From IMG/VR virus record IMGVR_UViG_3300044712_002400, positions 1 through 34,046 of that record: a stretch of DNA of 34,046 bases; one strand, 5' to 3'. Shown piece by piece: positions 199 through 32,747 of the stretch (its first letter is position 1; every line of letters begins with the position of its first letter). The notes below the pieces were generated by a model. It worked only from the letters and a program-made list of their open reading frames with translations. It did no database searches and was not told where the DNA came from. Both the position numbers and the translations under genes were made by a program. Origin of the DNA: a virus.

Positions 199-218
199 AA
201 CTGGGGAATTCCCCAGTT
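199..218. repeat. Dispersed palindrome, copy 1
   Basis: Perfect 20-bp palindrome AACTGGGGAATTCCCCAGTT. It starts 2 nt after the lysin stop codon and ends 13 nt before the ATG at 232, with the AGGAGG Shine-Dalgarno in between. As RNA it would form an 8-bp stem with an AAUU loop. It has no T-tract, so it is not a standard terminator. Confidence 0.95.
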
Positions 219-2530: not shown

Positions 2531-2856
2531 GGTTCCCCGCATTCTCGGCAGTGAGGTTGTCCGCACTGGCACGGCTTCTTGCGAAACATCTTGTGCAGCA
2601 TCGCCGTCGCGAAGGAGATGGGCTCTCCCTTCTCCGTCCTGACATAGACGAGGCGCGGCATCCTGTGCGCTCTGGGGTCACGGTCGAACTCGCACATATA
2701 GCGCTCGCCGGCGAACAACGCGCAGAGCTGCTCTGTGATAAAGTACTCGTTGTCGATGCTGCCTGAGACGCGGTGACCATCGTCAAAGCGGAACTCATAC
2801 TCACGAGAGAACGGCAGCACCCAGAGGCGCCCGGTGTAGTGGTGTTCTTCGCTCAT
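2527..2856 (-). CDS. Small early protein with C-terminal Cys cluster
   Basis: 109 residues from ATG 2856, which overlaps the stop of the large methylase gene as ATGA. An earlier in-frame ATG at 2967 would lie wholly inside that gene and is unlikely. The N-terminal 70 residues are beta-rich. The C-terminus carries Cys96, Cys98, Cys103 and Cys106 (CQCGQPHCREC), a probable zinc site. The stop overlaps the next start (ATGA), so it is translationally coupled on both sides. Function unknown. Confidence 0.75.
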   Translation of the reverse strand: MSEEHHYTGRLWVLPFSREYEFRFDDGHRVSGSIDNEYFITEQLCALFAGERYMCEFDRDPRAHRMPRLVYVRTEKGEPISFATAMLHKMFRKKPCQCGQPHCRECGEP

Positions 2857-5800
2857 CGTCGCCCCGCTTTCTTGGAGACCTTCTTCTCTTCGTTCTTCCC
2901 CTTGTTTCTCGTTGGCTTGGGTGCTGTTCGGTTGTAGGGAACCGTCGCGGGCTTGCTGTGCTTCCACTCACTGAAGACAGCCCGGCACTTGTCGCGCTCT
3001 GCGGTGGTCACTGTGAGGTCGATCATCGCGTCAAAGATCCGGGTCCCCTCGCCAACGGTGTTGCAGCGCTTCATGTCTGCGGTCATATCCTCCAACCAGT
3101 TGGGGGTCCGCATCTTGATGCGCTTGTCATTCTGCCAAGAGGCAAACTGCTTGGGGGTCAACGACACATCACGAACCTCATCCTCAAAGAGCGTGTAGCC
3201 ACCCTTGCTGTTGAGGTTGGCGTGTTCCACCAACCAGGCCTGCATGTGGATGAGCTCAGGACCCGTCGCGGGTGGTAGCTCAGCGGCCTTCTCCGGGTTC
3301 TTCTCGGCGCTCTTGACGTAGGCTTCTCGCGCCGATGGCTTGACGTTGCTCTCGTGAGGCAGCTTGGCGCGCAGCTCTTCCCGATAAGAGAGCAGCTCGT
3401 TGCGCTCATCGAGTGTCGAGGCGAGGGCCTCTAACTTGGTGTACGCCTGGTCGAACTCCTCGCGCGTTGTGCAGGCCCGGAGCTGCGAGAGAGCGCGGTT
3501 GGCCCAAGGGCCAACCGCGTCAGGAGCCGCGGCCTCTTTGCTCGTTGGCTTGGGACCAACGTATTGATCGCCGTACTGGTCGATCTTGAAGATCAACCCT
3601 TTGCCCACATGGTAATCGACGGAGTTCTGCAGGCCCTTCCAACGCTTATCTTTGTCGGTGCAAAAGGACACAGCAGAGGCGCCAAAGAAGAGCCAATCCC
3701 GAAGACGCGACCCGGGCACTACCTCACCCTTCACGCATGAAGAGACGCAGCACGAATTGCCATTGATGGTGATGGGGGTTGCGCTCGCGACTCTCCCGTG
3801 TGCGTCTTTGCAGTGCGTGTTCCATTCCTCGACTTTGATGCAGGAGAACCCGCAGATCAGGCAGAACCAATGAGGCCAAGAAGAGGTCTCTTCCTGGGGC
3901 TCTTCTTTAGCCTTAGGTGAAAAGACCTCTTGGCAGCTCGCGCATTGCAACTCGTCATCAATGACGCGGCAATCGTTCTTGGTTGTCCAACACTTGGCGC
4001 AGCGGCCGCGCAGGTCTTTGGTTCGGCACCCAGCACAGATCAGCTTCTTGCCACCCAACAGAGTGCAGTCATTGAGCAGCTCACAGAAATGGCATCGCCC
4101 TCTCTTCGTCGCCTCTGTCTGAGGCAGAGCACCACTCAAGAGAGTGGTATCCGTGGCGCTCTCCTTTGGGGTTGCCGCTCGCGGCAACCCCATCTGCTTG
4201 GTGGGGTTGAGCACCTCTCGAATGTCGCGGCCGTCTATCTCATTGCCGATCGAGACCCAACCCTCTGCGGTCTCGCGGGCGAAGAGCTCTACCCTGGGGT
4301 GCTCGTCTCTCGAATAGAGAGAGTCTAAGTACTCCCTGACGTCGCGGGGCTTCTCGGAGTGTCGCCCTCTGGGGTACTCCAACACTGAGCTGACTCTGAC
4401 CTCTGGGTCACTGGGGCCAAAGTTGCCCTTGGTCGCGACGAACAAGAGCTCGTGATCGACTCTCCAATAATGACCCATCCCTGCGCCGTTGCGCCCTTTG
4501 ATCCAAACCGCTTGCGATTTATAAACAAACCCCCAGGCGTCTAAGAGCTGCAGCGCCTCTTTGATCATCGGCGCCGTGACCCAAAGGTAGAGAACCGCGC
4601 GGGGGGCTGTGATCGAAGGCACGTTCAGCGCGCAGAGCTCTGCGATCGAAAGGGTTGGGTATTGTTGCTCGATTGATTTCGACTCAGAGACGCGAGCGGA
4701 GTACTGCCACGGGGGATCCACGTACAACACAGAGAACGGACCCAGCTTATCCGGGGAGGCCAAGTCCTTGGCCTCCCCGGCGATCGCGGCGTGCTTCGCC
4801 TCGCGGTTGGTGTCCACCGTCTCCCGGTAGGAGGCCTTCTCTGCTGGGGTCTTTGGCGCAGGAAACACCCCTGTCGCCGGGAAGGGTTGGAGCGCCGGCA
4901 ACGGGGGCTCCGCGATAAACCAACAGAGGCGCTTCTTTAAGATGACATCGACGAAGCACACCCTTACCTCAAACTGATCATCGCTCATCACGGCGGCGCT
5001 GACCTCTGCGTCTGGCAACACCGTCATCGCCTCTATCATCGTCGCCGGTTTCAAGCGCCCTTCGATCATCACCTTCTGCGACCACCCATTGATCAAAGCG
5101 TGCTCTCGCTCCAACTGACCCAACAGGGCATGGAGCTTTCCCGTTTTGACAGAGGCCTTCTTCTCTTCGGCTTTTCTCTCCGCCTGGTCGTAGAGCCCGG
5201 GCCCGCTCTTGGCGGCGCGCTCCTCTGGGGTGCTGATGCTGAGGCGGTTCTTCTCTTGGGCGGCCTCTGCAGCGTGCTTCATGCAATGAACGCCATTCCA
5301 GGCGAGCAACCCGCAGTAGCATTTGACGGCGCCTTTGGTCGGGGTAGAGATGGTCGGTTTGTCGATCGACGTTGCGTCGTCTGTCGATAACTCAGACAGG
5401 GTAGGGGTTTCCGCGATCGGCTTCGAAGGAAATAGCTCCGGTTGGGGCGAGGGTTCAACTGGGGAATTCCCCAGTTGACGTCGCTTGCCATCGGCGCCGA
5501 CCCGCTCGAGCGCCTCTGGGATCTCTCCTGCAGCGACCATCTGAGAGCGCACGGCGGCGACGGTCTTGTGATCGAGGTCGCAGGCCTTCCCCACTCTATG
5601 ATCGGAGTGGGTGTGCCAATCGCCCTCAAGGAGATAGAGCCGGATGGCATTGCGGCCGTCCGCCTGGGTCCGAACGACCCCGTGTTGTTTAGAGGTGTTC
5701 GCTCTGACGGCGTGCAGCAAAGCGGCCTGGGCGCCGCCCTCATGTATATAGGCCTCGATGAGGGCTTGTCCCGCTTTGATGTGAGCCTTGATTCGGGTGT

Positions 5801-5993
5801 GTCCATCTCCGATCGCGAAGCGCTCTCCCTCTCGATAGAGGTCTACCGGGGGGAGTGTTTCACCGGCCAAGATGGCGGCGGCGTACTCATCGATCTTCGC
5901 GGGGTCCGGATTTACCCGGGCCTGCTTGGAGATTTCGAAGCTGATCTTGTCGATGTTAATCAGCGCGGTCTTTGACTTGGGGGGCTTGTTCAT
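2853..5993 (-). CDS. ParB-like / HTH / MT-A70 adenine methyltransferase fusion
   Basis: 1046 residues. Residues 10-110 are a ParB-like domain with GDGHTR at 62-67. Residues 125-152 form an HTH (DHRVGKACDLDHKTVAAV). MT-A70 methylase spans about 418-590, with the catalytic DPPW at 426-429 and a typical DHELLFVATKG segment. Further on are Cys-rich zinc ribbons (about 625-690) and a C2H2 finger (about 705-730), then a helical tail. ParB-MT-A70 combinations are known in phages; MT-A70 enzymes transfer methyl from SAM to N6 of adenine. It probably protects phage DNA or marks it for regulation. The ParB-HTH part could give sequence recognition. Palindrome copy 2 lies in frame in the linker between HTH and methylase and encodes QLGNSPVE (173-180). 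The start is ATG 5993, coupled by ATGA. Confidence 0.85.
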   Translation of the reverse strand: MNKPPKSKTALINIDKISFEISKQARVNPDPAKIDEYAAAILAGETLPPVDLYREGERFAIGDGHTRIKAHIKAGQALIEAYIHEGGAQAALLHAVRANTSKQHGVVRTQADGRNAIRLYLLEGDWHTHSDHRVGKACDLDHKTVAAVRSQMVAAGEIPEALERVGADGKRRQLGNSPVEPSPQPELFPSKPIAETPTLSELSTDDATSIDKPTISTPTKGAVKCYCGLLAWNGVHCMKHAAEAAQEKNRLSISTPEERAAKSGPGLYDQAERKAEEKKASVKTGKLHALLGQLEREHALINGWSQKVMIEGRLKPATMIEAMTVLPDAEVSAAVMSDDQFEVRVCFVDVILKKRLCWFIAEPPLPALQPFPATGVFPAPKTPAEKASYRETVDTNREAKHAAIAGEAKDLASPDKLGPFSVLYVDPPWQYSARVSESKSIEQQYPTLSIAELCALNVPSITAPRAVLYLWVTAPMIKEALQLLDAWGFVYKSQAVWIKGRNGAGMGHYWRVDHELLFVATKGNFGPSDPEVRVSSVLEYPRGRHSEKPRDVREYLDSLYSRDEHPRVELFARETAEGWVSIGNEIDGRDIREVLNPTKQMGLPRAATPKESATDTTLLSGALPQTEATKRGRCHFCELLNDCTLLGGKKLICAGCRTKDLRGRCAKCWTTKNDCRVIDDELQCASCQEVFSPKAKEEPQEETSSWPHWFCLICGFSCIKVEEWNTHCKDAHGRVASATPITINGNSCCVSSCVKGEVVPGSRLRDWLFFGASAVSFCTDKDKRWKGLQNSVDYHVGKGLIFKIDQYGDQYVGPKPTSKEAAAPDAVGPWANRALSQLRACTTREEFDQAYTKLEALASTLDERNELLSYREELRAKLPHESNVKPSAREAYVKSAEKNPEKAAELPPATGPELIHMQAWLVEHANLNSKGGYTLFEDEVRDVSLTPKQFASWQNDKRIKMRTPNWLEDMTADMKRCNTVGEGTRIFDAMIDLTVTTAERDKCRAVFSEWKHSKPATVPYNRTAPKPTRNKGKNEEKKVSKKAGRR
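5455..5478. repeat. Dispersed palindrome, copy 2 (in frame)
   Basis: A 24-bp perfect palindrome: the 20-bp core at 5457-5476 extended by TC and GA. It lies inside the minus-strand ParB/MT-A70 gene, in the inter-domain linker, encoding QLGNSPVE without disturbing the frame. The 24-bp length is a multiple of three. Confidence 0.95.
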
Positions 5994-6379: not shown

Positions 6380-6599
6380 GAGGCAACTCCTTGTAGAGGT
6401 TCACCTCAACAAAGCCCCCCCTCTTTCAAAACCGTGACAAACTATTTTCAATAAAATGAATTTCTTCTGTGGATAGAATCGTTCTATTATAAAACCGTTA
6501 ACGTTTATTCACACCTTTGTATAATATAGTTGACGGCACTGGCTTGGCTTGCCCTGCCGGTAGGTTTGTGATCAGATCGAACCAACACAGGAGATTGTT
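6380..6599. promoter_or_regulatory. Divergent early promoter region with operator-like dyad
   Basis: An AT-rich 220-bp gap between divergent transcription units. On the plus strand, TTAACG (6498-6503), 16 nt and TATAAT (6520-6525) form a sigma70-like promoter for 6600. On the minus strand a TATAAT lies at 6491-6486 for the leftward operon, with only a weak -35. CGTTAACG (6496-6503) is a perfect 8-bp dyad, extendable with one mismatch to AACCGTTAACGTTT. It overlaps the rightward -35 and sits beside the leftward -10, which is where a shared operator would be expected. Confidence 0.55.
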
Positions 6600-7220
6600 A
6601 TGCGATGGCTCTTAATACTGTTATGTTTTCCCCTGAGCCTCTTTGCACAGAGTGGCCCTGTCTGCGGCAATGGAACGCAGGATGTGGGCGAGCGCTGCGA
6701 CGATGGCAACACCGCGGATAATGATGGCTGCAGCGCCCGCTGTATCCCTGAGTTCTGCGGTGACAAGATCATCAATAACAAGAACGAGGAGTGCGACGAC
6801 GGGAACGTCTTCCCGGATGACGGCTGCACCAATTGTTTCCGCTCAGCTGTCGTTGAGTCTGAGGACGAAGACGATGACCAGGCGGCGAGCTCACCCAGCC
6901 TCACCCCAGAGGAGGCCTTTCGGCTGTCGCTTGTGACGACGTTGTTTCTCCCCCCTGGGTTGGGTCTGGTCTGGGGGCCTTCTATGGGGCACTTCGCCGC
7001 GGGCGAGACGGGGCGCGCTATGGGGATGACGCTCCTCCGGGCCGGACTGATCGGGGCCGCTGTTGGCATCTCGCGCAGTCAGCTCTTTGTCGCCAACGAT
7101 CCTGACTTCAACCCGCGCGCCGGCACTGCGTTGATTGTGATCGATGGCTTGGCGCTGACGACGTTGATCGCGGTTGATCTCCTCGACGGACCCCGAGCCA
7201 TCGAGCGAGCAAAGAAGTAA
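6600..7220 (+). CDS. Secreted/membrane Cys-rich repeat protein (myxococcal type), probable moron
   Basis: 206 residues with CAGGAG upstream of ATG 6600. Residues 1-16 are a signal peptide (hydrophobic core LLILLCFPLSLF, then AQS). Two Cys-rich repeats follow at about 20-48 and 51-79 with the CGNG...C-DDGN...DGC pattern. This matches the DUF4215 / myxococcus cysteine-rich repeats abundant in surface proteins of Myxococcota. Next come an acidic Asp/Glu run (87-93) and three hydrophobic segments (about 109-128, 140-156, 177-195). The protein is likely exported and membrane-anchored with the repeats outside. It has its own promoter and no phage structural role, so it looks like a lysogenic-conversion gene acquired from the host. 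Confidence 0.8.
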   Translation: MRWLLILLCFPLSLFAQSGPVCGNGTQDVGERCDDGNTADNDGCSARCIPEFCGDKIINNKNEECDDGNVFPDDGCTNCFRSAVVESEDEDDDQAASSPSLTPEEAFRLSLVTTLFLPPGLGLVWGPSMGHFAAGETGRAMGMTLLRAGLIGAAVGISRSQLFVANDPDFNPRAGTALIVIDGLALTTLIAVDLLDGPRAIERAKK

Positions 7221-7222
7221 CC

Positions 7223-7244
7223 CGACTGGGGAATTCCCCAGTCG
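7223..7244. repeat. Dispersed palindrome, copy 3 (compensated variant)
   Basis: A 22-bp perfect palindrome whose core is GACTGGGGAATTCCCCAGTC (7224-7243). Relative to the other copies, the outermost A is G and the matching T is C, so the dyad is kept. It begins 2 nt after the TAA of the Cys-rich gene. Confidence 0.95.
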
Positions 7245-8134: not shown

Positions 8135-8813
8135 ATGTCCACCATTACAGAAATGGCGGCCTTGGTGAGGTCCGTCCATTCGTCTGCGCGCACGCATTGA
8201 TGAGGCCTATATCGCGCTTGGCCTTTCGTGGCCTTACTCGCGGCTACATTCACTCTCAGGTGCAGACTACAAAGAAGCTCTCTTAGCCGTCAGAGCGGCC
8301 TATGAAGCGAACCCCATCCCTGAGCACTTCTATCTGGTTGTGATCGTGATGCGCGGCTCACTGCTCCATTGGGCGGGCCTCAATGTGGCCCTGCCATCGC
8401 GCATCCTGCAGCGCCTTGAATCGGGCCTCCTTCGCCGCAAGCGATATCTCACGCTCTGGGTCAGACGTTGGTTGATGCCTCTGGTTGAGAAGCGCGAGCG
8501 CGAGCGTGAGGCGCTGCAGCTGTTGGCCTTCGCTCTCGATGTCGAGACCTACCAGACGCCGTCTGACCCGGGCCTGCGCAGAGCCATCTTGCGAGCGATT
8601 GCAGCGCTCAATGAGCGCGACCAGGCGATCATCCGGGCCTTGGCGCAGAAGCTCGGTGCAACGGAAATTGCTGACGAACTCGGCACGACACCGACGACGG
8701 CGAGGAAACAAATCGAGCGAGCAAGGCAAGCATTCAGAGAGGAGCTCAGATCTATTTTTCGTGGCGATGAAAATAGTTGGTCACGATTTCTAAAGAAGGG
8801 GGGCTTTGTGTGA
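8135..8813 (+). pseudogene. Sigma-70 region 4-like late regulator, frameshifted near its start
   Basis: ATG 8135 (Shine-Dalgarno AAAGGA) opens a frame that reads MSTITEMAALVRSV and then stops at 8198. From about 8178 a protein-like sequence continues in the +1 frame (IRLRARIDEAYIALGLSWP and on) without interruption to TGA 8811-8813. Joined, it would be about 225 residues. The last 60 residues (NERDQAIIRALAQKLGATEI, then an HTH with TPTTARKQIERAR) resemble sigma-70 region 4 and ArpU-type phage late-transcription regulators. Without a shift the nearest start is GTG 8340, giving 157 residues. The break may be a mutation, a base error or programmed +1 shifting, but I see no classic slippery site. 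The C-terminal domain remains intact either way. Confidence 0.6.
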
Positions 8814-8832: not shown

Positions 8833-9147
8833 ATGGCAGACAAAAAAAACAGCAGTCCACCCCCTGACTATGAGGCCGCTATCTATAAAAAGGAGTATGC
8901 GCCGGGCATCGTCGCGATCTTGCGCCGTCTGTCCCGGCTGAACGAGAAGACCTTTTTAGAGATGGAGAAGATGAGTGATCAACTGGGGAATTCCCCAGTT
9001 GAAGATTTCGAGCAACGCCTTTCGATCTTGCTGTCAGAGAACCTGAAGCAAGTGGTAAAAGAAGTCTTCGCGTTGGGTGGTCTGTCGCAGTTGTCGCTCG
9101 AGGCGTTTCGAGAGAGCGCGGGCTATCCGCTTGAGGTGACGCGATGA
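8833..9147 (+). CDS. Small helical protein carrying an in-frame palindrome
   Basis: 104 residues from ATG 8833 with AGAGAGG upstream. It is mostly helical and charged. Residues 49-57 (DQLGNSPVE) are encoded by palindrome copy 5, placed between two helices where an extra loop would be tolerated. There is no recognised family. It ends in ATGA overlap with the next small gene, so it belongs to the operon that leads to the excisionase and integrase. Confidence 0.7.
   Translation: MADKKNSSPPPDYEAAIYKKEYAPGIVAILRRLSRLNEKTFLEMEKMSDQLGNSPVEDFEQRLSILLSENLKQVVKEVFALGGLSQLSLEAFRESAGYPLEVTR
8979..9002. repeat. Dispersed palindrome, copy 5 (in frame)
   Basis: A 24-bp perfect palindrome (core 8981-9000) inside the coding sequence 8833-9147, read as DQLGNSPVE. 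It is the same reading frame of the element as copies 2 and 9. Confidence 0.95.
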
Positions 9148-13134: not shown

Positions 13135-13156
13135 CAACTGGGGAATTCCCCAGTTG
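13135..13156. repeat. Dispersed palindrome, copy 6
   Basis: A 22-bp perfect palindrome (core 13136-13155). The core starts 2 nt after the TAA of the preceding gene, with the same TAACC junction as copies 1 and 8. The next gene starts 97 nt downstream. Confidence 0.95.
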
Positions 13157-18719: not shown

Positions 18720-19664
18720 ATGCCAACCGGAGCAGATTACCAGGCGAACCGTACCCTGAGCGGGTTCGCCATTCGTTATCAGAACAGCGCCTACATCGCA
18801 GACCTGGTCAGCCCTGTCTGTGAGGTCGAGTCAAAGAGCGGCTTCTACTACAGCTTTGGCGAGACCGACGACTTTGACGAGTACGAGACCAACGCCTCTG
18901 AGGAGGGCGCCGTCTCTGAGTCCAAGGGCAAGCGTCAGCGCAACCAGTACGACACCACTCCTTTTTCACACAAGGAGTTCGTCAGCGCTGAGGCAGAAGA
19001 AGAGGGCAACCTCATCAACCTGCCTGAGATTGATCTCGCCGTGAACCGGGTGACAGATGTTGTCTTGCGCAAGCGAGAGATCGCCGTCGCCAATAAGCTC
19101 ACCAACACGGCCAACTATCCCGCAGGGTTTCGCCTCGCCGTCGTCAACAAGTGGGGCACGGCGACGATGAAGCAAATCCTTGACGTCATCAACGATGCCA
19201 AAGACGTGCTTGTCGAGGATAGCGGCCCGCTGCAGTTGACCTGTGGGCGGGTCGTTGCGCGCGCTCTCTGTACGAACGCCAACCTCATCGCGGCCGTGAC
19301 CCCCACCAAGGCGGTCGGTCAGCTCAAACTCGAGCAGCTCGCGGAGCTCTTAGAGGTCGATCGCATTGTGGTCGGCAAAGCCAAGAAGACGACCAAGGTC
19401 AAGAACAAGACGACCAAGAGCTTCATCTGGGGGGACTTCGCGATCCTGAACTACGTGAACCCCAAGCCTTCCTGGATTGGTACGACGGGTCACAACGTCA
19501 GCTTCCGTCGCAAGCTCAAGGGCCTGAGCATGAGGACCTATGTGCTCCCCAACATGGAGCGCGGGTCGGATGGTGGGACGGAGATCAAGGTCAGCATGAT
19601 CGAGGACTACGCCAAGATCGTGAACGACGCCGCGGGGTATCTGTTCAGCGCCTGCACCGCGTAA
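18720..19664 (+). CDS. Major capsid protein
   Basis: 314 residues. The order protease, cement, this gene, then connectors identifies it, and the size suits an HK97-fold capsid subunit. The N-terminal region is acidic and contains FSHKEFVSAEAEEEG, similar to the E-loop and N-arm region of Mu/Lambda-E-like coat proteins. Residues 125-200 are a mixed alpha/beta core (AVNKWGTATMKQILDVINDA), and the C-terminus has the Tyr/Asn-rich strands of the A-domain. It forms the icosahedral shell. TAA is followed 2 nt later by palindrome copy 8. Assignment is by position and composition. Confidence 0.8.
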   Translation: MPTGADYQANRTLSGFAIRYQNSAYIADLVSPVCEVESKSGFYYSFGETDDFDEYETNASEEGAVSESKGKRQRNQYDTTPFSHKEFVSAEAEEEGNLINLPEIDLAVNRVTDVVLRKREIAVANKLTNTANYPAGFRLAVVNKWGTATMKQILDVINDAKDVLVEDSGPLQLTCGRVVARALCTNANLIAAVTPTKAVGQLKLEQLAELLEVDRIVVGKAKKTTKVKNKTTKSFIWGDFAILNYVNPKPSWIGTTGHNVSFRRKLKGLSMRTYVLPNMERGSDGGTEIKVSMIEDYAKIVNDAAGYLFSACTA

Positions 19665-22229: not shown

Positions 22230-22526
22230 GTGGCTATCTCAGACAAAGACAAGCTCTTTATCAGAGAGCAATTTGCAAAGGCCCAGGAAGCCAAGGCACT
22301 GCTCGCGCTCGATGAGAGCGAGGAGGCGCCCGAGCTGCTCTATGCCGTGGAAGAAGAGGAGGCTATCTGCGCGGTGCGAGTGCCGATGAAGCAGCCTCAC
22401 TGCTTTGAGCTCTGGGCGGTGGATCGAACCTCGACGCCGCTGCAGGGGGTCAAGGTCGGCACCCAGAACGAGTACGGCCAATTCCATTGGAGCCAACTGG
22501 GGAATTCCCCAGTTGAAGAGGGGTGA
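22230..22526 (+). CDS. Small tail-region protein ending in palindrome-encoded residues
   Basis: 98 residues starting at GTG 22230, with AAGGAGG upstream. It is acidic and helical. The last residues, SQLGNSPVEEG, are encoded by palindrome copy 9, so the C-terminus may have been extended by the element. It sits between the tail tube and the tail chaperone genes. No family recognised. The stop overlaps the alternative GTG start (22523) of the next gene. Confidence 0.65.
   Translation: MAISDKDKLFIREQFAKAQEAKALLALDESEEAPELLYAVEEEEAICAVRVPMKQPHCFELWAVDRTSTPLQGVKVGTQNEYGQFHWSQLGNSPVEEG
22494..22515. repeat. Dispersed palindrome, copy 9 (in frame)
   Basis: A 22-bp perfect palindrome (core 22495-22514). 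It is in frame at the C-terminus of 22230-22526 and also 14 nt before ATG 22529, the same distance to the next start as in the intergenic copies. Confidence 0.95.
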
Positions 22527-24836: not shown

Positions 24837-26975
24837 TTGGCGATCATTGTGAAGGTGGTCCTCAACCTTGATGAGGCGAATGAGCAGCTGGATAAATTCC
24901 AGGCATCGGCGGCAGAGGCCTTTAAGAAAGCGGGCGCGTCACTGGGGGACAACTTCAACGCCGGCGCACAAGAAGGTCTCGACAAAGCGACGGAACAATT
25001 TGGCGGCTTTGCCTCTGGCGTCGAGAAGCAGCTGAAGCGCGCGGCTGATGCAGCCGAAAACATCAGTAACAAGCTCTCGCTGCAAGACAAGATTGGCATC
25101 TTTGGCGACGCGAAAGACGTCTTTGAAAAGGCGGCCGGGTCACTGCTCGGCTTCAACCAGGCGGCCATTGATAGCGCCGTCCGTATCGCTGACGTAGCCG
25201 AGAAGGGCGCCAACATTGGCGCAGTCTTCGGGCCTCTGCCTGCGCTCATCCTGGGTGGGGTGGGTGCTCTGCTGGAATACTTCGGGGAGTCCAAGCGAAT
25301 CAGCGCAGAGAGCGAGGCTGCAGCCGTCCGGCATAAGCAGGCGATTGAAGGCCTTCACCTTGAGCTGAAAGCGCTGCAGCGCGATGCCATCTCTGACGGC
25401 AAAGCAAACCTTGAGGCAATGGGCGTCGCCCTGGTCAAGCTGGGCGACAAGATACGAGACCAGAACAAAGGGACGCGCGAAGGGTCTCAGGAGGGCATCG
25501 CCAAGGATACGCTCTTTGCTCTCGACCAGGCGCAGAAGCAGGTGCAGGAGATTCAAGACAGCATCGTCGAGACCCAGGACAGCTTCAAACCCAAGTCTCT
25601 CGATGAACTCAAGACGGCCGCAGAGAACTCCGCGAAGGGTCTGACCACCGCGCAAACAGAGCTGGGCAAGCTGAACAAAGAATTGGAAGAATCCAAGCGG
25701 CTCGTCAGCTCGACAGACATCACCACATTCAGCGGGCTTGTGCAGTTCGTGGGTAAAGATTTGGGTGGGTTGGTGCTCGACTTCTCCGAGAAGATACAGC
25801 AGCAAGAGCGCAGCGTCTCAGATGCACGCGCCAAGGCGAGTAAGGATGAGGCGGCCTACAAAGCCGAGCTCAAGAAGAGTGAAGCCGAGCTCGAGCGCGG
25901 GCGCCAAGAAAGTGCCCGCAAAGCGAAGGAGCGCGCGGAGCAGTCACGCCGCGATCGAGAGGCAGAGGTCGCGTACAACCGGGCGCTGCGCGAATCCATC
26001 TTGGCGCTGCGCGAGGCAGAGCAGGCGAGGACCCAGGCCATTTATGATCAGGGGGTTGAGCTGCAAAAGCTTGGCGAGGACTTCGCCAAAGTAGTGAAGG
26101 GTCAGGTAGAAGAGCTCGCGCAGTTTGGACCCGAGATCATGCAGAAGTTTTTGCCGGCGTTATTGGACGCGAGCAACCAGGGCGAAGAGGCGATGGCCCG
26201 GGTGGTCTTTCAAGCGAAGCTCTACAAGATCGAGATGGAAGGCCTGCCGCCTCTGGCCTCTGTCATTGGCGGTCAAACAGGGCAGGTCGATAATCTGAAG
26301 GCCTCCATCGCGGGGCTGTTCAACGTCATCTACACAGAAGGCTCCAACGCTGACATCGCGCTGACTGCCATCTCCGGTTCGCTCAAAGACATTGGCAGCT
26401 CTGCAGCGGGGGCCATTGGCGGCGCCGCGTCTGGGGCGCTCTCCGATTTATTCGAGGCGATGGCGGCCGGCGAGAAGACGGCAGAGGGCTTTGCCAAAAG
26501 CTTTGCGCGCAAGAGCGCTGAGGCGCTGCGGAGCACTGGGTCAGACCTCATCGGGGATGGCATCGCGAACGAGCTCAAGGCCCTCGCAATGACCTTCATC
26601 CCTGGGATGCAGGGGAACGCCGTTGGGTTGGCGAGCGCCGGCGCGGCAGAGATCGCGGCGGGCTTAGCAATGGGCGGCGTTGGTGTTGGGGTGGGTCGCC
26701 GGGTGGGACCTGCGCCCGAGTCGGAAGATGCAGCCCGGGGCGGGTCTTCTTCCCTGGGGGGAGGTGGGGGCCCGAGCTTAGGCGCCGCGACCCCGCGCGA
26801 ACTCGAGCGCGCCCCTGTCATCTATCAGTTCTTTGCGGGCGGGGCGCCGGGCTCCACAACCGTGAACGCCGGCGACGGCCCGGCCTCGCTCGCCCAGGCC
26901 AACCGAGAACTCACCCGTATCCAATCAGAAGGCGGCCGGGTGGGTAGCGGCGGCTTCACACGGAGGAAGTCTTGA
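24837..26975 (+). CDS. Tape measure protein
   Basis: 712 residues from TTG 24837 with AAGGAGG 4 nt upstream. Long helical, Ala/Glu/Gln/Lys-rich segments with coiled-coil pattern, one hydrophobic stretch near residues 126-150 (GPLPALILGGVGALL), a Gly-rich C-terminal part around 635-670 and a basic tail fit a tape measure. It sets tail length: at about 0.15 nm per residue the tail would be near 105 nm. The stop overlaps the next start. Size is moderate for this family. Confidence 0.85.
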   Translation: MAIIVKVVLNLDEANEQLDKFQASAAEAFKKAGASLGDNFNAGAQEGLDKATEQFGGFASGVEKQLKRAADAAENISNKLSLQDKIGIFGDAKDVFEKAAGSLLGFNQAAIDSAVRIADVAEKGANIGAVFGPLPALILGGVGALLEYFGESKRISAESEAAAVRHKQAIEGLHLELKALQRDAISDGKANLEAMGVALVKLGDKIRDQNKGTREGSQEGIAKDTLFALDQAQKQVQEIQDSIVETQDSFKPKSLDELKTAAENSAKGLTTAQTELGKLNKELEESKRLVSSTDITTFSGLVQFVGKDLGGLVLDFSEKIQQQERSVSDARAKASKDEAAYKAELKKSEAELERGRQESARKAKERAEQSRRDREAEVAYNRALRESILALREAEQARTQAIYDQGVELQKLGEDFAKVVKGQVEELAQFGPEIMQKFLPALLDASNQGEEAMARVVFQAKLYKIEMEGLPPLASVIGGQTGQVDNLKASIAGLFNVIYTEGSNADIALTAISGSLKDIGSSAAGAIGGAASGALSDLFEAMAAGEKTAEGFAKSFARKSAEALRSTGSDLIGDGIANELKALAMTFIPGMQGNAVGLASAGAAEIAAGLAMGGVGVGVGRRVGPAPESEDAARGGSSSLGGGGGPSLGAATPRELERAPVIYQFFAGGAPGSTTVNAGDGPASLAQANRELTRIQSEGGRVGSGGFTRRKS

Positions 26976-29557
26976 CCGCTCAAATGTCTCAGGCCTGGGG
27001 CGCCATCGTCATCTATGGGTTTCCTGACCCGGCCTCTCCCCAAAGCGGCGCTCCTGTCGTGTTTACCAATGGCGCCTTTGCTCTGCCGGCAGAGCTCACC
27101 GGCTACACCATTCGCAATTGGCTGACAGAGATTGGCGGCGAGACCTTTACGGCGAACCTGCGCACCCCGTGCGCGGCAGGTGGGTCGATTCGGGCGCTCC
27201 TCGAGGACACAGACGGCGCGCTCTCTGCTCTGCTGGTGAAGGACTCAACTGCTGCAGGGTGGTATCTGGAGAGCGCCGCGATCGATGATGCGGTGACGTC
27301 GTTCACGCTGAGCGGGAACACGGCCCCCACCATCAACCTCTTGCTGTGGATTGAAGGCGAGGCCGTCAAGGTGACCAACGTCGTCGCCGGTCCGACAGCA
27401 AGAACCTGGGTCGTCACGGTGACCAGAGGCCAATGCGGCTCCTTCGCGGCGACGCATCGAGTGACCCCCTCTGTCTATTGGGCGCCGGGCTCTAATGGCA
27501 TCGCAGAGCGCATCCTGGTCACGTCCAAGCCCGTGCCCTCCCGGCATCGCTTTTTGGCTCGCGCGTATCGACTGCGAGAGACAGAGACCGGGACGACGGA
27601 GGTCTCTCACTATCGAGACGGTTATCTCTCGCGCACTGTGGGGCGCATCAGCCCCCGGGTCTGTGAGTTTCATTTTGAGCCAGTCACCCGATTGATTGAA
27701 GATCATGTGGTGCGCCGCAATGCGGGTCCTGTCTCAGTGGGTCGCTGCATCGAGATCACAGACTTGGCAGAGGCCTTTGGGATCGCAGGGTCGCAGGTCT
27801 ATCCGCGCAAGGCGCGCCTCTGGTTATCTGCGAAAGAAGCCGGGCTCTTCTTGGACTTTCCCTTTCGACAACCAGGGAACACCGGCATTGATGCGACGTT
27901 GGTTACCTTGGCGCAGTCGGTCTATCAGTCGGGCGCGGAGTGCCCCAAGCTCTGCAAGCTGACCTCCACTCCCGGCGAGGCGCTCTATGAGATCACGTCG
28001 ATTGAGTATATCCCCGGCTCGAGCGTTCCCGATCACTCCTCGGAAGAGTTCATCTTGGTGAACCTCTCCGTGTGGCGCTCTGATATCGCGTTGGGCGAGC
28101 GCATTACAGAGGCCGGGTACACGGTCTTCTCGCGCTATCCCGGGGGCTTTGCCCAGGGGCAAGCCGTTCCTCTGATCGTGGGAGATACGCCGCCCCAGGT
28201 CGAACTCTGGTTGCTGCCGTCGCTGACCATCGCCCAGTTCTTTGCGCGCTTCCTCTGCTCGAATGGCGGCGACATGGACAACGCCTTTGACCTCTTTCCC
28301 CCCGGAGTCGGGTTGCGCCTGCCTGACGTTTTCATCAACTGGGGAATTCCCCAGTTGAACCCTTCGCTCGATACCGTCGCCCTGGCCGAGCTCGACCAGC
28401 TCCAGACGACCAAGTACATCTGGCCGATCAAGCCGGGAACAAAACCCGCGGACCTCTTGAATCACATTTGTCGTCTGCTTCGGATTGTGCCGACTCCTCT
28501 CGTAGAAGGAGGGATGACGCTGCGCACCTGGGCGAGGCCCTTCACGTCAACGGCCAACGAGGTCGTACTCGAGGATACGGAGCTCGAACTCTTGACAGAC
28601 ATCGCCCCGCTTCGCGCGCTCGAGTTCGTCGCCGGCGTCGATCTGCTGACCTTTGAGCCAGTCACCCCACCCAGGCTCGCCCTCGTACAGAGCACGCTGA
28701 CCGCAGAGGCCGGAGATTTGGAGCGCGTCTGGGTCTTGGTACAGGACCGCAACGCGCTCGATGATGAGGCCTTCGCGAGCGGCGATATCTTCGAGTGCTG
28801 CAGGGCCTTCTTTGTCACGCTGCAGGGCGAGCCTTTGGTGCTCAAAGGAGTGACCGACCTCGATGGCGTCAGCTATCAATCAGTGGATTATTTGACGCTG
28901 ACGGACCCCGCGATTCCCACCCCGTTGGGCCGGGGCGTCATCAGCAAACGGTACATCGTCATCTCTGTGGGGCTGAGCTGGAACGATGCAGGGCAACCCA
29001 TCTTGCTCTTGCCTGACGAGCTCAACAACGCGGCGCTGCAATCCACGGGCAAGATCGCGCCAACCTTGCGCGTCAGTGAGCTCAGGCAGGTCAAAGGAGC
29101 GGGGCCTTATACCATCGCAGTGCGCGTCGATTCGTTGGGAGACACCACCTTTGACGCGAACTCAGCCCACGGCGGCATCTGGTACGACATCTTATCAGAG
29201 GCCGGGTATGTGCGCTGTATCAGGCCCGTACACAACACCGTCACAGACCCCACCAAAGACCGCATTGGGTGGCTCGAATGCTACGCGCAGATAGCCTCTC
29301 TGACCTATGTGGGTCCGGAGACTCAGATGGAGCTGACCCTTGCAGCGGCGTGGCTCCATGACGGGCTGACGGCGCAAGATTATTTTGTCGCCGGAGAGAC
29401 CTTCATCACCCTGATGGATGTGAACACCGGCAACCGCCTGGGGTTCCGAGTGGAGCCTGCAGCGACCCAGCTCTACTCCAATGGAACCGGGCTGGACTTT
29501 CTCAAGTTTGACGGGGTGCTTCCTTTTGATTCACACCGTTCTTTGATAGGAGCGTAA
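26972..29557 (+). CDS. Tail-tip/baseplate protein with in-frame palindrome
   Basis: 861 residues from TTG 26972 (TTGA overlap with the tape measure; GGAGGAA upstream); ATG 26984 is an alternative. It is a large beta-rich protein with many short strands, the size and position of a baseplate hub or tail-tip protein. No enzymatic domain is recognised. Palindrome copy 10 at 28335-28358 lies in frame and encodes INWGIPQLN around residues 455-462, a different reading frame of the element from the other in-frame copies. Confidence 0.65.
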   Translation: MTAQMSQAWGAIVIYGFPDPASPQSGAPVVFTNGAFALPAELTGYTIRNWLTEIGGETFTANLRTPCAAGGSIRALLEDTDGALSALLVKDSTAAGWYLESAAIDDAVTSFTLSGNTAPTINLLLWIEGEAVKVTNVVAGPTARTWVVTVTRGQCGSFAATHRVTPSVYWAPGSNGIAERILVTSKPVPSRHRFLARAYRLRETETGTTEVSHYRDGYLSRTVGRISPRVCEFHFEPVTRLIEDHVVRRNAGPVSVGRCIEITDLAEAFGIAGSQVYPRKARLWLSAKEAGLFLDFPFRQPGNTGIDATLVTLAQSVYQSGAECPKLCKLTSTPGEALYEITSIEYIPGSSVPDHSSEEFILVNLSVWRSDIALGERITEAGYTVFSRYPGGFAQGQAVPLIVGDTPPQVELWLLPSLTIAQFFARFLCSNGGDMDNAFDLFPPGVGLRLPDVFINWGIPQLNPSLDTVALAELDQLQTTKYIWPIKPGTKPADLLNHICRLLRIVPTPLVEGGMTLRTWARPFTSTANEVVLEDTELELLTDIAPLRALEFVAGVDLLTFEPVTPPRLALVQSTLTAEAGDLERVWVLVQDRNALDDEAFASGDIFECCRAFFVTLQGEPLVLKGVTDLDGVSYQSVDYLTLTDPAIPTPLGRGVISKRYIVISVGLSWNDAGQPILLLPDELNNAALQSTGKIAPTLRVSELRQVKGAGPYTIAVRVDSLGDTTFDANSAHGGIWYDILSEAGYVRCIRPVHNTVTDPTKDRIGWLECYAQIASLTYVGPETQMELTLAAAWLHDGLTAQDYFVAGETFITLMDVNTGNRLGFRVEPAATQLYSNGTGLDFLKFDGVLPFDSHRSLIGA
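28335..28358. repeat. Dispersed palindrome, copy 10 (in frame)
   Basis: A 24-bp perfect palindrome (core 28337-28356) within the 861-residue tail gene, encoding NWGIPQL. It is the only copy more than 1 kb from both ends of the gene that contains it. Confidence 0.95.
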
Positions 29558-30429: not shown

Positions 30430-31151
30430 TGGCCCAGCTCGCCCTGGTCACTGATTTTCTGCGCTATCGCAAGCGGTTCAGGGTTGGGGCGGGGCACCTG
30501 GTTCCCATCTCCTCAGAGGCCTATCCCAAGCTCACTGGTTGGCCGCCCAACATCAACCACGACACAGACCTTTATCAAAGCATCATCCCGTTTATCGAAG
30601 GGCAGAACGCAGACGGTTACGTGTTCTCTCTGACGGGCGAGCGGCTTGCCGGGTCTCTTGCTGTGGCGGCCGGGCACAGTCACGAGCTCGCCAAGACGGC
30701 GCTCGCCTGGTGGCCCGTTGGGTCTTGGCAGTGTCCCGCGAACAGGGGCCCCGATAAACCAGAGGCCACCGTTCTGACGACGTCGGTGTATCTCAACCCC
30801 ATCATGGCGATCATCCTGGGTACGCTGCAGCCGGGAACGACCCGCGTCGCGATCAGAGCTTGTGTCACCGGGCCATTCAATGCGGGCGCCGCCAACTTCT
30901 TTCAGCTCAAGTTCAGTTTGTATGGAGACCTCGACACCTCTTTCTTATCGCCCATCACGACCCAGTTGGTCTGGGACTTGAGTGTGACCTCGACACAGAG
31001 ATGGCTAGAGACCTCTCCGATCGACATCACCGGGCTATCGCTCTCTGCCAATCGGCAGTTGGTGTGCTTGGCACAGTGGAGCTTTGATGTGGGCGCCGGC
31101 GCTCCTGATATGGCGGTGTATCAAATCCAGATAGGAGCGCTCGATCAATGA
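30429..31151 (+). CDS. Tail/receptor-binding region protein, unknown
   Basis: 240 residues from ATG 30429 (TAATG overlap). The C-terminal half has strands like TLQPGTTRVAIRACVTGPF and SLYGDLDTSF, reminiscent of beta-sandwich phage fibre domains. No motif known. The stop overlaps the next gene by ATGA. It probably forms part of the host-recognition complex at the tail tip. Confidence 0.55.
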   Translation: MAQLALVTDFLRYRKRFRVGAGHLVPISSEAYPKLTGWPPNINHDTDLYQSIIPFIEGQNADGYVFSLTGERLAGSLAVAAGHSHELAKTALAWWPVGSWQCPANRGPDKPEATVLTTSVYLNPIMAIILGTLQPGTTRVAIRACVTGPFNAGAANFFQLKFSLYGDLDTSFLSPITTQLVWDLSVTSTQRWLETSPIDITGLSLSANRQLVCLAQWSFDVGAGAPDMAVYQIQIGALDQ

Positions 31152-32722
31152 GCACCATCGATCCTCTCGACACAGAACAGACCCCCTACCGAACCTTACC
31201 CACAGCAGAGGTCAAGCTCACCTGGGTGGACAATACGACGGGCGTCAAGGAGCTCGCCTTTGGCACTCGCCTGCCGTCGCAGCGCGGATACCAGAGAGAG
31301 CACGATCACGGCGATAAGGGCGGGGTGCATCTGGGGATGCCGCTCGAGCGCTACGTGTTTGGGCCCTATACCCGCAAGCGCTTCGATATGTATTCGGGGG
31401 TTCCTATCGTGGGATCCAACCCAACCAATCTCATCGCAACGGGCAAGGCAAAGCTCTTGCTCTCTGCGCCCTGCAGGGTGTTGGGTGGGGTGACGGGTGT
31501 GCATATTGATTTCCTCTTGGTGGGTCAGCTCGCAGCGGCGCCCCAACCGCTGACGCTCGCCTTTGTCTTGCGGCCTCTGGGGCTCGTGAACTTCAACAGC
31601 TTCTTGAGCTCCATCAACGATAGCGCCTTCACCTATGGCAACATGAAGAAGGTCGCGCTCTCTGTGCCGCTCTCGATCACTCGTCAGCGAGCGACCATCT
31701 CTGACCTCTCGCGCCTGGGGCCTGCGCACTCCTTACGCCAAGCAGAGCTCTGCGTCTTTCTGTGCAGCGATATCCTGTCGGGGGATTACATGCACATCAC
31801 CTCTGCCAACGTCCTGGTCGCCTCGACAACGACTGACGTTTCCCCACTCTCCGGGCCTCCTCCCCAGGCAGTCACTCTGTCGCAGGTACAAGCCGGCCAA
31901 CCTTTGTTAGCAGGTCTGGGAGAGCAGGCCAAGCAGCGCGGCAACGCGCTCAACCTCTCTGTGCAGGGGGTTCGCCCCGGATTCTGGGACAACCAGATCA
32001 ACCCCTCTGTGCCATGGGTGCAGGAGCTCACCGGCGCACATCAGCATCAGGGACTGAAGATCAAGCAAGCAGATGGAAGTTTCCTGGGAGATGGCCCGAT
32101 CCTGGGGTACTCGCTCTTTAGTCAGAGCTACGCGCAGGTAGGGGAGACCTCTGCAGACGAGTTCGTGGATAACCTTCCCTGCACGGGGATTAAGGTGAGC
32201 CGCACGGGAGTGATCGGACAACAGCTCACCTTCTTTCAAGACTTCCCGCTCGCCTCTGGGGTGAAGAAGATTTATCTGCTCTTTGCGCTGCGACCTGAGA
32301 CGAGCTCACCCAAGACGCGCCTCGCCGTCGCGGTGCATCTGACGCGAGCGAACGTGACCCCCACCACAACCAACAACAAGATCATCTCCTGCGCCGGAAC
32401 GCCCACGGTTGATGCGGCGGGCTATGTGGTGGGGACGGCAATCCCCGCGCCCACGGCGGGACATCAACCCAACGGCGGCAGAGAAGCGGCCGGGCTTGGC
32501 CTCTGGACGCGCGACGCCGAAGCAGCCCAGGCGCAATCTGGGGTGAGGCTGGAAAACTGTTATCGGGTGTCCGTTCCGGTGGAGATGGTGTTGCTTGATG
32601 AAGCCCGCGCGACGGAGCAATACACGCTCCGGTATCAGTTCCTCTTGTACGACGATCAGACAGAGACGGCGCTCGATGATGCAGCTGGGTTACTGTGGGT
32701 AAATGGAATCGCCGTAGAGTGA
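31148..32722 (+). CDS. Putative tail fibre/receptor-binding protein with duplicated HxH modules
   Basis: 524 residues from ATG 31148. Two HxH motifs, His52/His54 (EHDHGD) and His298/His300 (AHQHQG), lie 246 residues apart, each followed by a beta-rich module. This suggests an internal duplication. HxH motifs that bind metal in trimeric tail fibres are known from T4-like phages. The position at the end of the structural cluster before lysis supports host recognition. Trimerisation is inferred. The TGA is followed 2 nt later by palindrome copy 11. Confidence 0.6.
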   Translation: MSTIDPLDTEQTPYRTLPTAEVKLTWVDNTTGVKELAFGTRLPSQRGYQREHDHGDKGGVHLGMPLERYVFGPYTRKRFDMYSGVPIVGSNPTNLIATGKAKLLLSAPCRVLGGVTGVHIDFLLVGQLAAAPQPLTLAFVLRPLGLVNFNSFLSSINDSAFTYGNMKKVALSVPLSITRQRATISDLSRLGPAHSLRQAELCVFLCSDILSGDYMHITSANVLVASTTTDVSPLSGPPPQAVTLSQVQAGQPLLAGLGEQAKQRGNALNLSVQGVRPGFWDNQINPSVPWVQELTGAHQHQGLKIKQADGSFLGDGPILGYSLFSQSYAQVGETSADEFVDNLPCTGIKVSRTGVIGQQLTFFQDFPLASGVKKIYLLFALRPETSSPKTRLAVAVHLTRANVTPTTTNNKIISCAGTPTVDAAGYVVGTAIPAPTAGHQPNGGREAAGLGLWTRDAEAAQAQSGVRLENCYRVSVPVEMVLLDEARATEQYTLRYQFLLYDDQTETALDDAAGLLWVNGIAVE

Positions 32723-32747
32723 TCAACTGGGGAATTCCCCAGTTGAT
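32722..32747. repeat. Dispersed palindrome, copy 11 (longest)
   Basis: A 26-bp perfect palindrome (core 32725-32744, extended by ATC and GAT). The core begins 2 nt after the TGA of the fibre gene. A separate 14-bp palindrome TTTGCAGCTGCAAA (32782-32795) lies between it and the holin-like gene. Confidence 0.95.

Follow-up and report, generated by a model that had tools for sequence, protein, structure and literature searches.

A phage ParB-like/HTH/MT-A70 fusion protein and a dispersed palindrome that is also present within its gene

Background

Many phages encode ParB-like proteins outside partition systems, and DNA targets are known for few of them. KorB of plasmid RK2 is a ParB-fold repressor that acts at dispersed palindromic operators, cooperates with a ParA, IncC, and dimerises through a C-terminal domain of its own. 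In the StrR family (StrR, Bbr, Dbv4, AoStrR1) an N-terminal ParB-like domain is followed by a helix-turn-helix (HTH) (PMC10886168), and the target of Bbr, GTCCAaN17TtGGAC, is a long palindrome (PMC7852140). Corndog, a cluster O mycobacteriophage, carries more than 30 dyad 17-bp repeats with invariant arms, many of them intergenic, and encodes a ParB-like protein; these repeats (TGTTCGG-N3-CCGAACA) have been linked to no protein (PMC4351075). Repressor sites scattered in phage genomes are also represented by the stoperators of cluster A mycobacteriophages (cited in PMC4351075). The ParB fold has been described in fusion with MT-A70 in archaea and with N6_N4 methyltransferases in phages (PMC12704722), in a text that does not mention palindromes or in-gene sites of ParB-methyltransferase fusions.

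The DNA analysed here, called the window, is a linear virus record of 34 kb that encodes an integrase, terminase, portal and head proteins. Its protein P0001 has in common with the StrR family the ParB-like and HTH layout and long palindromic targets, the latter as predicted below; StrR-type proteins, however, activate antibiotic clusters from promoter sites, whereas P0001 is a phage protein with intragenic and post-stop sites and with MT-A70 and finger regions fused to it. It resembles KorB in its ParB fold, a Foldseek match, and in the dispersed palindromes, but KorB is without a methylase and has a different operator. Corndog is the nearest phage precedent, combining dispersed dyads with a ParB-like protein, although its repeat differs in sequence from the palindrome of the window, ACTGGGGAATTCCCCAGT. 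Cluster A stoperators are asymmetric and oriented, unlike the perfectly symmetric palindromes found here.

Domain architecture of P0001

The gene and its predicted parts are as follows.

2853..5993, minus strand: P0001, 1046 aa, ParB-like domain, HTH, MT-A70 and Cys-rich fingers (ORF, PF05063, phrog_1033, AlphaFold, Foldseek)
5691..5978, minus strand: ParB/sulfiredoxin-fold domain, residues 6-101, with GDGHTR motif at 62-67 (phrog_1033, 69-row alignment, Foldseek)
5532..5666, minus strand: HTH, residues 110-154, with recognition helix 142-154 and hexamer LDHKTV at 140-145 (AlphaFold model, covariation)
4239..4736, minus strand: MT-A70 methyltransferase domain, residues 420-585, with DPPW at 426-429 (PF05063, E=2.7e-23)
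3789..4094, minus strand: Cys-rich region, CxxC pairs in residues 634-687 and a C2H2-like motif at 711-732 (sequence)

Residues 6-101 matched phrog_1033 (E=5e-10), and in the Pfam search ParBc gave no score on P0001. Arg67 of the nucleotide motif is invariant across 69 aligned sequences. The motif reads GDGHTR/DGFHR, which we take to be nearer the Srx/SerK form than GERR. A sequence search of the PDB returned no relative, but an AlphaFold model of residues 1-200 (69-row alignment as input, pLDDT 87) matched ParB, Noc and KorB structures in the Foldseek fold search (E down to 6e-7), and the HTH in this model consists of helices 110-123, 131-138 and 142-154. The N-terminal half has a ParB-type fold followed by an HTH. 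The nearest homologues on plasmids are about 29-37% identical, and several carry the annotation 'streptomycin biosynthesis regulator'. The methylase assignment rests on the PF05063 match together with an intact DPPW. A preliminary description had read the gene as a 1046-residue fusion of ParB-like, HTH, MT-A70 and Cys-rich parts, a reading borne out by phrog_1033, the modelled HTH, PF05063 and the Cys motifs.

Palindrome copies in the window and in a related contig

The 18-bp core ACTGGGGAATTCCCCAGT is present ten times in the window, each copy identical at 18/18 positions, and the chance expectation for this is nil. There are no degenerate copies; the best match elsewhere in the window has 6 mismatches. 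The core is extended to AACTGG..CCAGTT in 9/10 copies, and the copy at 7224 differs by a symmetric A>G/T>C change. All ten were found by sequence and are listed without strand.

199..218, unstranded: immediately after a stop codon, ahead of an RBS/ATG
5455..5478, unstranded: within P0001, behind the HTH codons, encoding QLGNSPVE (residues 173-180)
7224..7243, unstranded: symmetric variant GACTGGGG..CCCCAGTC, after the stop of 6600-7220
8981..9000, unstranded: within ORF 8833-9147, QLGNSPVE frame
13136..13155, unstranded: follows a stop codon and precedes the terminase genes; syntenic in contig L005
17877..17896, unstranded: ahead of a 265-aa gene upstream of the capsid gene, syntenic in L005
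19667..19686, unstranded: behind the stop codon of 18720-19664, the putative major capsid gene
22495..22514, unstranded: in the final codons of ORF 22230-22526, shortly ahead of the next gene
28337..28356, unstranded: within ORF 26972-29557, NWGIPQL frame
32725..32744, unstranded: after the stop of 31148-32722

Non-coding DNA makes up 11% of the window and holds six of the ten copies (p=0.0003), five of these six directly following a stop codon; the other four, including that in P0001, lie in coding regions. The copies in P0001 (5457-5476), at 8981-9000 and at 22495-22514 share a reading frame and so encode one identical peptide, QLGNSPVE, within genes that are unrelated, and the stop-containing frame of the palindrome is used by none of the coding copies. 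The copy in P0001 had been placed 'precisely' between the HTH and the methylase; it does lie between them, but since it is about 19 residues past the HTH and about 240 residues ahead of the MT-A70 domain, the adverb slightly overstates the case.

Since there are ten copies, mostly between genes, P0001 could act genome-wide. A ParB fold and palindromic sites would also be expected of partition, in which P0001 would be a genuine ParB acting on the palindromes as the parS centromeres of a prophage resembling a plasmid. We regard this as extremely unlikely, because the phage encodes an integrase, the sites are spread over the genome rather than clustered, the relatives look like StrR-type orphan ParBs and there is no ParA among the left-arm and regulatory ORFs searched, in a contig that may be partial.

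A search of viral contigs returned the exact 20-bp palindrome in one other contig only, L005. This 8.8-kb fragment encodes a portal and a terminase with 76% and 70% amino-acid identity, respectively, to their counterparts in the window. It has the 18-bp core upstream of its terminase genes and the inner 16-18 bp, with diverged flanks, ahead of the gene preceding the capsid gene, both syntenic with window copies. Because L005 keeps the core at syntenic places with diverged flanks, the core is conserved and the flanks are not. The L005 palindrome upstream of terminase is bracketed by a 9-bp direct repeat, GAACCTACC, resembling a target duplication (L005:8634-8673); an origin of the palindrome as an insertion element was considered and rejected, as no such repeat was seen at the window copies. 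The 16-mer of the palindrome matched mostly unrelated singletons in viral contigs, and matches in bacterial genomes were singles in unrelated organisms, which were judged to be due to chance.

In-gene palindromes in the ParB-HTH family

Scans of viral contigs with the whole of P0001 or its N-terminal part as a single sequence found nothing, and the search required an alignment built from distant relatives. Among 50,697 phage records there was one clear ParB-HTH homologue, in MT835519, whose top repeated palindrome, TCTGTCG-N5-CGACAGA, differs from that of the window and is present in 3 copies, one within the ParB-HTH gene just behind the HTH and two directly after stop codons. One MT835519 copy (L040:4109-4127) is near a mobilisation relaxase-like ORF (2775-3962), and this element may therefore be plasmid-like.

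The in-gene palindrome of MT835519 led to a family-wide search, in which alignment-based scans of viral contigs gave about 125 loci, about 150 related phage genes being compared overall. Viral homologues number more than 500. In the first 49 loci, perfect palindromes centred 0-50 nt past the HTH codons numbered 20 for arms of at least 7 (2.8 expected) and 17 for arms of at least 8 (0.95 expected). A palindrome with an arm of at least 8 was found just behind the HTH in 46/124 ParB-HTH genes, compared with 1.0% of 6941 random control windows from the same contigs, and the loci showed no comparable enrichment upstream of the HTH. In a codon-shuffle control p was below 0.01 in 17/48 genes tested. 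In about 60% of relatives no near-perfect site is present behind the HTH. The comparison shows that many members of the family carry a putative DNA-binding site within their own gene. StrR-type genes on four plasmids had no palindrome behind the HTH, one of these genes ending before the HTH; an in-gene site may be characteristic of phages, although a sample of four plasmids is too small to say. AAGCCCT..AGGGCTT repeats in L075-L077 were terminator-like and were set aside. In the open-access literature we found neither in-gene target sites behind the HTH nor a recognition code for orphan ParBs.

Recognition helix and half-site

When 39 distinct in-gene palindromes were aligned on their centres, T-7 was present in 39/39 and C-8 in 33/39, with a half-site consensus of A-9 C-8 T-7 G-6. 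The StrR site GTTCGACTG-N11-CAGTCGAAC presumably also puts ACTG at -9 to -6, with a difference between even and odd centres. The start of the recognition helix was written V-S-x3-x4-x5-V and compared with the site in 38 helix-site pairs, in counts that ignore shared ancestry. His at x3 goes with G-5 in 13/14 and Asp or Glu with C-5 in 13/13 (kinship ignored), Lys at x4 goes with GG at -4/-3 in 7/9, and Thr at x5 goes with A-1 while Phe, Tyr and Leu go mostly with C-1 (Fisher 7e-7 for Thr/A, kinship ignored). Similarity of helices and similarity of half-sites were correlated with r=0.42, the largest value in 5000 shuffles being 0.21.

GGGAA, the inner half-site of the window palindrome, accompanies an HKT helix in 4/4 cases and 0/34 helices of other classes (p=1.4e-5, kinship ignored). 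The members of the HKT class are P0001 (LDHKTV), L140, L155 and L050, and the site of L140, ACTGGGGAA-t-TTCCCCAGT with helix VDHKTV, is near-identical to that of the window. A third scan served as a held-out set, with 56 fresh genes and 16 distinct palindromes of arm at least 8 among the matches listed; the x5 rule was borne out in 16/16 of these, His, Asp and Glu behaved as predicted in 10/10, both HKT helices were paired with GGGAA (2/2), and the Gln and Pro rules failed (0/3). Because other genes show the HKT-GGGAA rule without P0001, P0001 can be said to obey it, and the site predicted from LDHKTV is the site present ten times in its genome. Binding of the ten-copy palindrome by the ParB-HTH half of P0001 is thereby strongly supported as a prediction. 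A link between P0001 and the palindrome had been put forward earlier as a testable idea, and it gains from the homologues' palindromes behind the HTH and from inner bases that track the helix (LDHKTV with GGGAA).

The same correspondence bears on whether the palindrome is instead an operator or stoperator of another regulator, its presence in P0001 being incidental. The scattered post-stop sites do look like stoperators, and the window encodes two further possible DNA-binding proteins, including another HTH protein; candidates are a sigma-70 region-4-like product of 8340-8813, a weakly YdaS-like ORF at 862-1158, or a repressor encoded beyond the contig. In-gene palindromes across the family and a helix-site code that P0001 obeys exactly make such a coincidence very unlikely.

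It is also conceivable that the palindromes act as hairpins in mRNA, in processing, stability or translation upstream of RBSs, as several copies are preceded by a stop and followed by an RBS, and base-pairing between the arms is feasible in RNA. In genes picked only on pairs -5 to -9, however, pair -1 matches in 49/72 and pair -2 in 56/72, so the dyad in the relatives spans the centre, where a loop would give about 25%. As a hairpin needs no match at -1 and -2, these pairs together with the covariation of helix and site favour a DNA dyad read by a dimer. With four copies within coding regions, inner bases that track the HTH helix and no match in Rfam, a role in RNA is highly improbable.

Proposed role of the site

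The in-gene site is single in the whole or near-whole contigs of twelve relatives, and L180 (IMGVR_UViG_3300045886_000052) has one site in 68 kb. MT835519, L057 and L126 have 3, 2 and 2-3 copies, respectively, L085 and L091 each have a second one close by, and the window is the extreme case with ten identical copies. The second copy in L057 (10174-10195) lies in a gap before another gene resembling a ParB-methylase fusion. From the single copy in most relatives it follows that the usual role of the site would be in cis at its own gene, which is most simply autoregulation, the window phage having perhaps recruited the site for more; control on a genome-wide scale would be peculiar to the window phage, most of the relatives checked having one site even across a whole contig.

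The reading that best accounts for the locus, and which we think probable, is that of an orphan ParB regulator with an intragenic operator, amplified sites and a fused methylase. The sequence evidence covers the architecture, the copies, the in-gene sites of the family and the helix-site covariation. P0001 would be an orphan ParB-like DNA-binding protein of StrR/KorB type whose HTH recognises (CA)ACTGGGGAATTCCCCAGT(TG) as a dimer, with one helix for each half-site and LDHKTV, at the start of the recognition helix, reading the inner GGGAA. The copy behind the HTH codons could be the ancestral kind of site, being the sole copy in most site-bearing relatives; it would most likely serve autoregulation, and its placement in the gene would keep HTH and site together upon module exchange. 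With ten copies, mostly intergenic, one protein may act throughout the genome, as a repressor or road-block or from nucleation sites.

The fused methylase

The fused MT-A70 would be brought to the palindromes and may methylate adenines in cis, its target being speculative. The GAATTC at the centre of the palindrome had been suggested as a methylation target. This is not supported, given L140, which shares the half-site and is free of a methylase, and L180, a second fusion of ParB-HTH and MT-A70 (about 390 aa, Pfam E=1.4e-16), where the order is likewise ParB-HTH, palindrome, MT-A70 and the perfect 30-bp palindrome is without GAATTC. In L182 the ParB-HTH is fused to a different, NPPY-containing methylase-like domain, and an in-gene palindrome is present. 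Most relatives lack the methylase motif. Because palindromes accompany the HTH with or without a fused methylase, the palindrome belongs with the HTH and not with the methylase.

Methylation could nevertheless be the purpose of the system, with a ParB-like clamp (ATP/CTP gated) that loads at the palindromes, the ten sites, about 3.4 kb apart, being loading stations, and an MT-A70 that methylates in cis to leave an anti-restriction mark. The intact DPPW, the family-invariant Arg67, the likeness of the fold to the CTP-clamp proteins ParB and KorB and the palindrome at the equivalent place in the L180 fusion would all suit such a clamp, and bacterial ParB fusions with SAM-dependent methyltransferases bind ATP (PMC12704722). 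L180, however, has a single site in its 68 kb, the multi-copy MT835519, L057 and L126 have no methylase motif in the ParB ORF, and an in-gene palindrome is usual among methylase-free relatives, so we consider this unlikely. A broader formulation, about which we are nearly as doubtful, is that of a family whose genes hold their own specificity site as a portable unit of reader and address, with a simple code from amino acid to base, in which the copied address here would steer a ParB-clamp-borne MT-A70 along the phage DNA.

Significance and neighbouring features

The target of a ParB-like protein outside partition systems may be readable from its own gene, and the code would predict the site from three residues of the helix. 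The finding adds a phage whose site has multiplied to ten places and opens dispersed phage palindromes of this kind to direct tests of function, the 17-bp repeats of Corndog being a similar case, and the family could offer many orthogonal pairs of protein and site.

Near P0001 a 42-nt inverted repeat (6409-6450 and 8768-8809, 88% complementary) brackets a DUF4215 gene, a SWIM-like ORF and the sigma-70 region-4-like ORF, and may be the mark of an inserted cassette or a pair of facing terminators. The DUF4215 protein (6600-7220) looks secreted. DUF4215 proteins of this kind are common in Myxococcota, and the presence of one here is a hint at the host.
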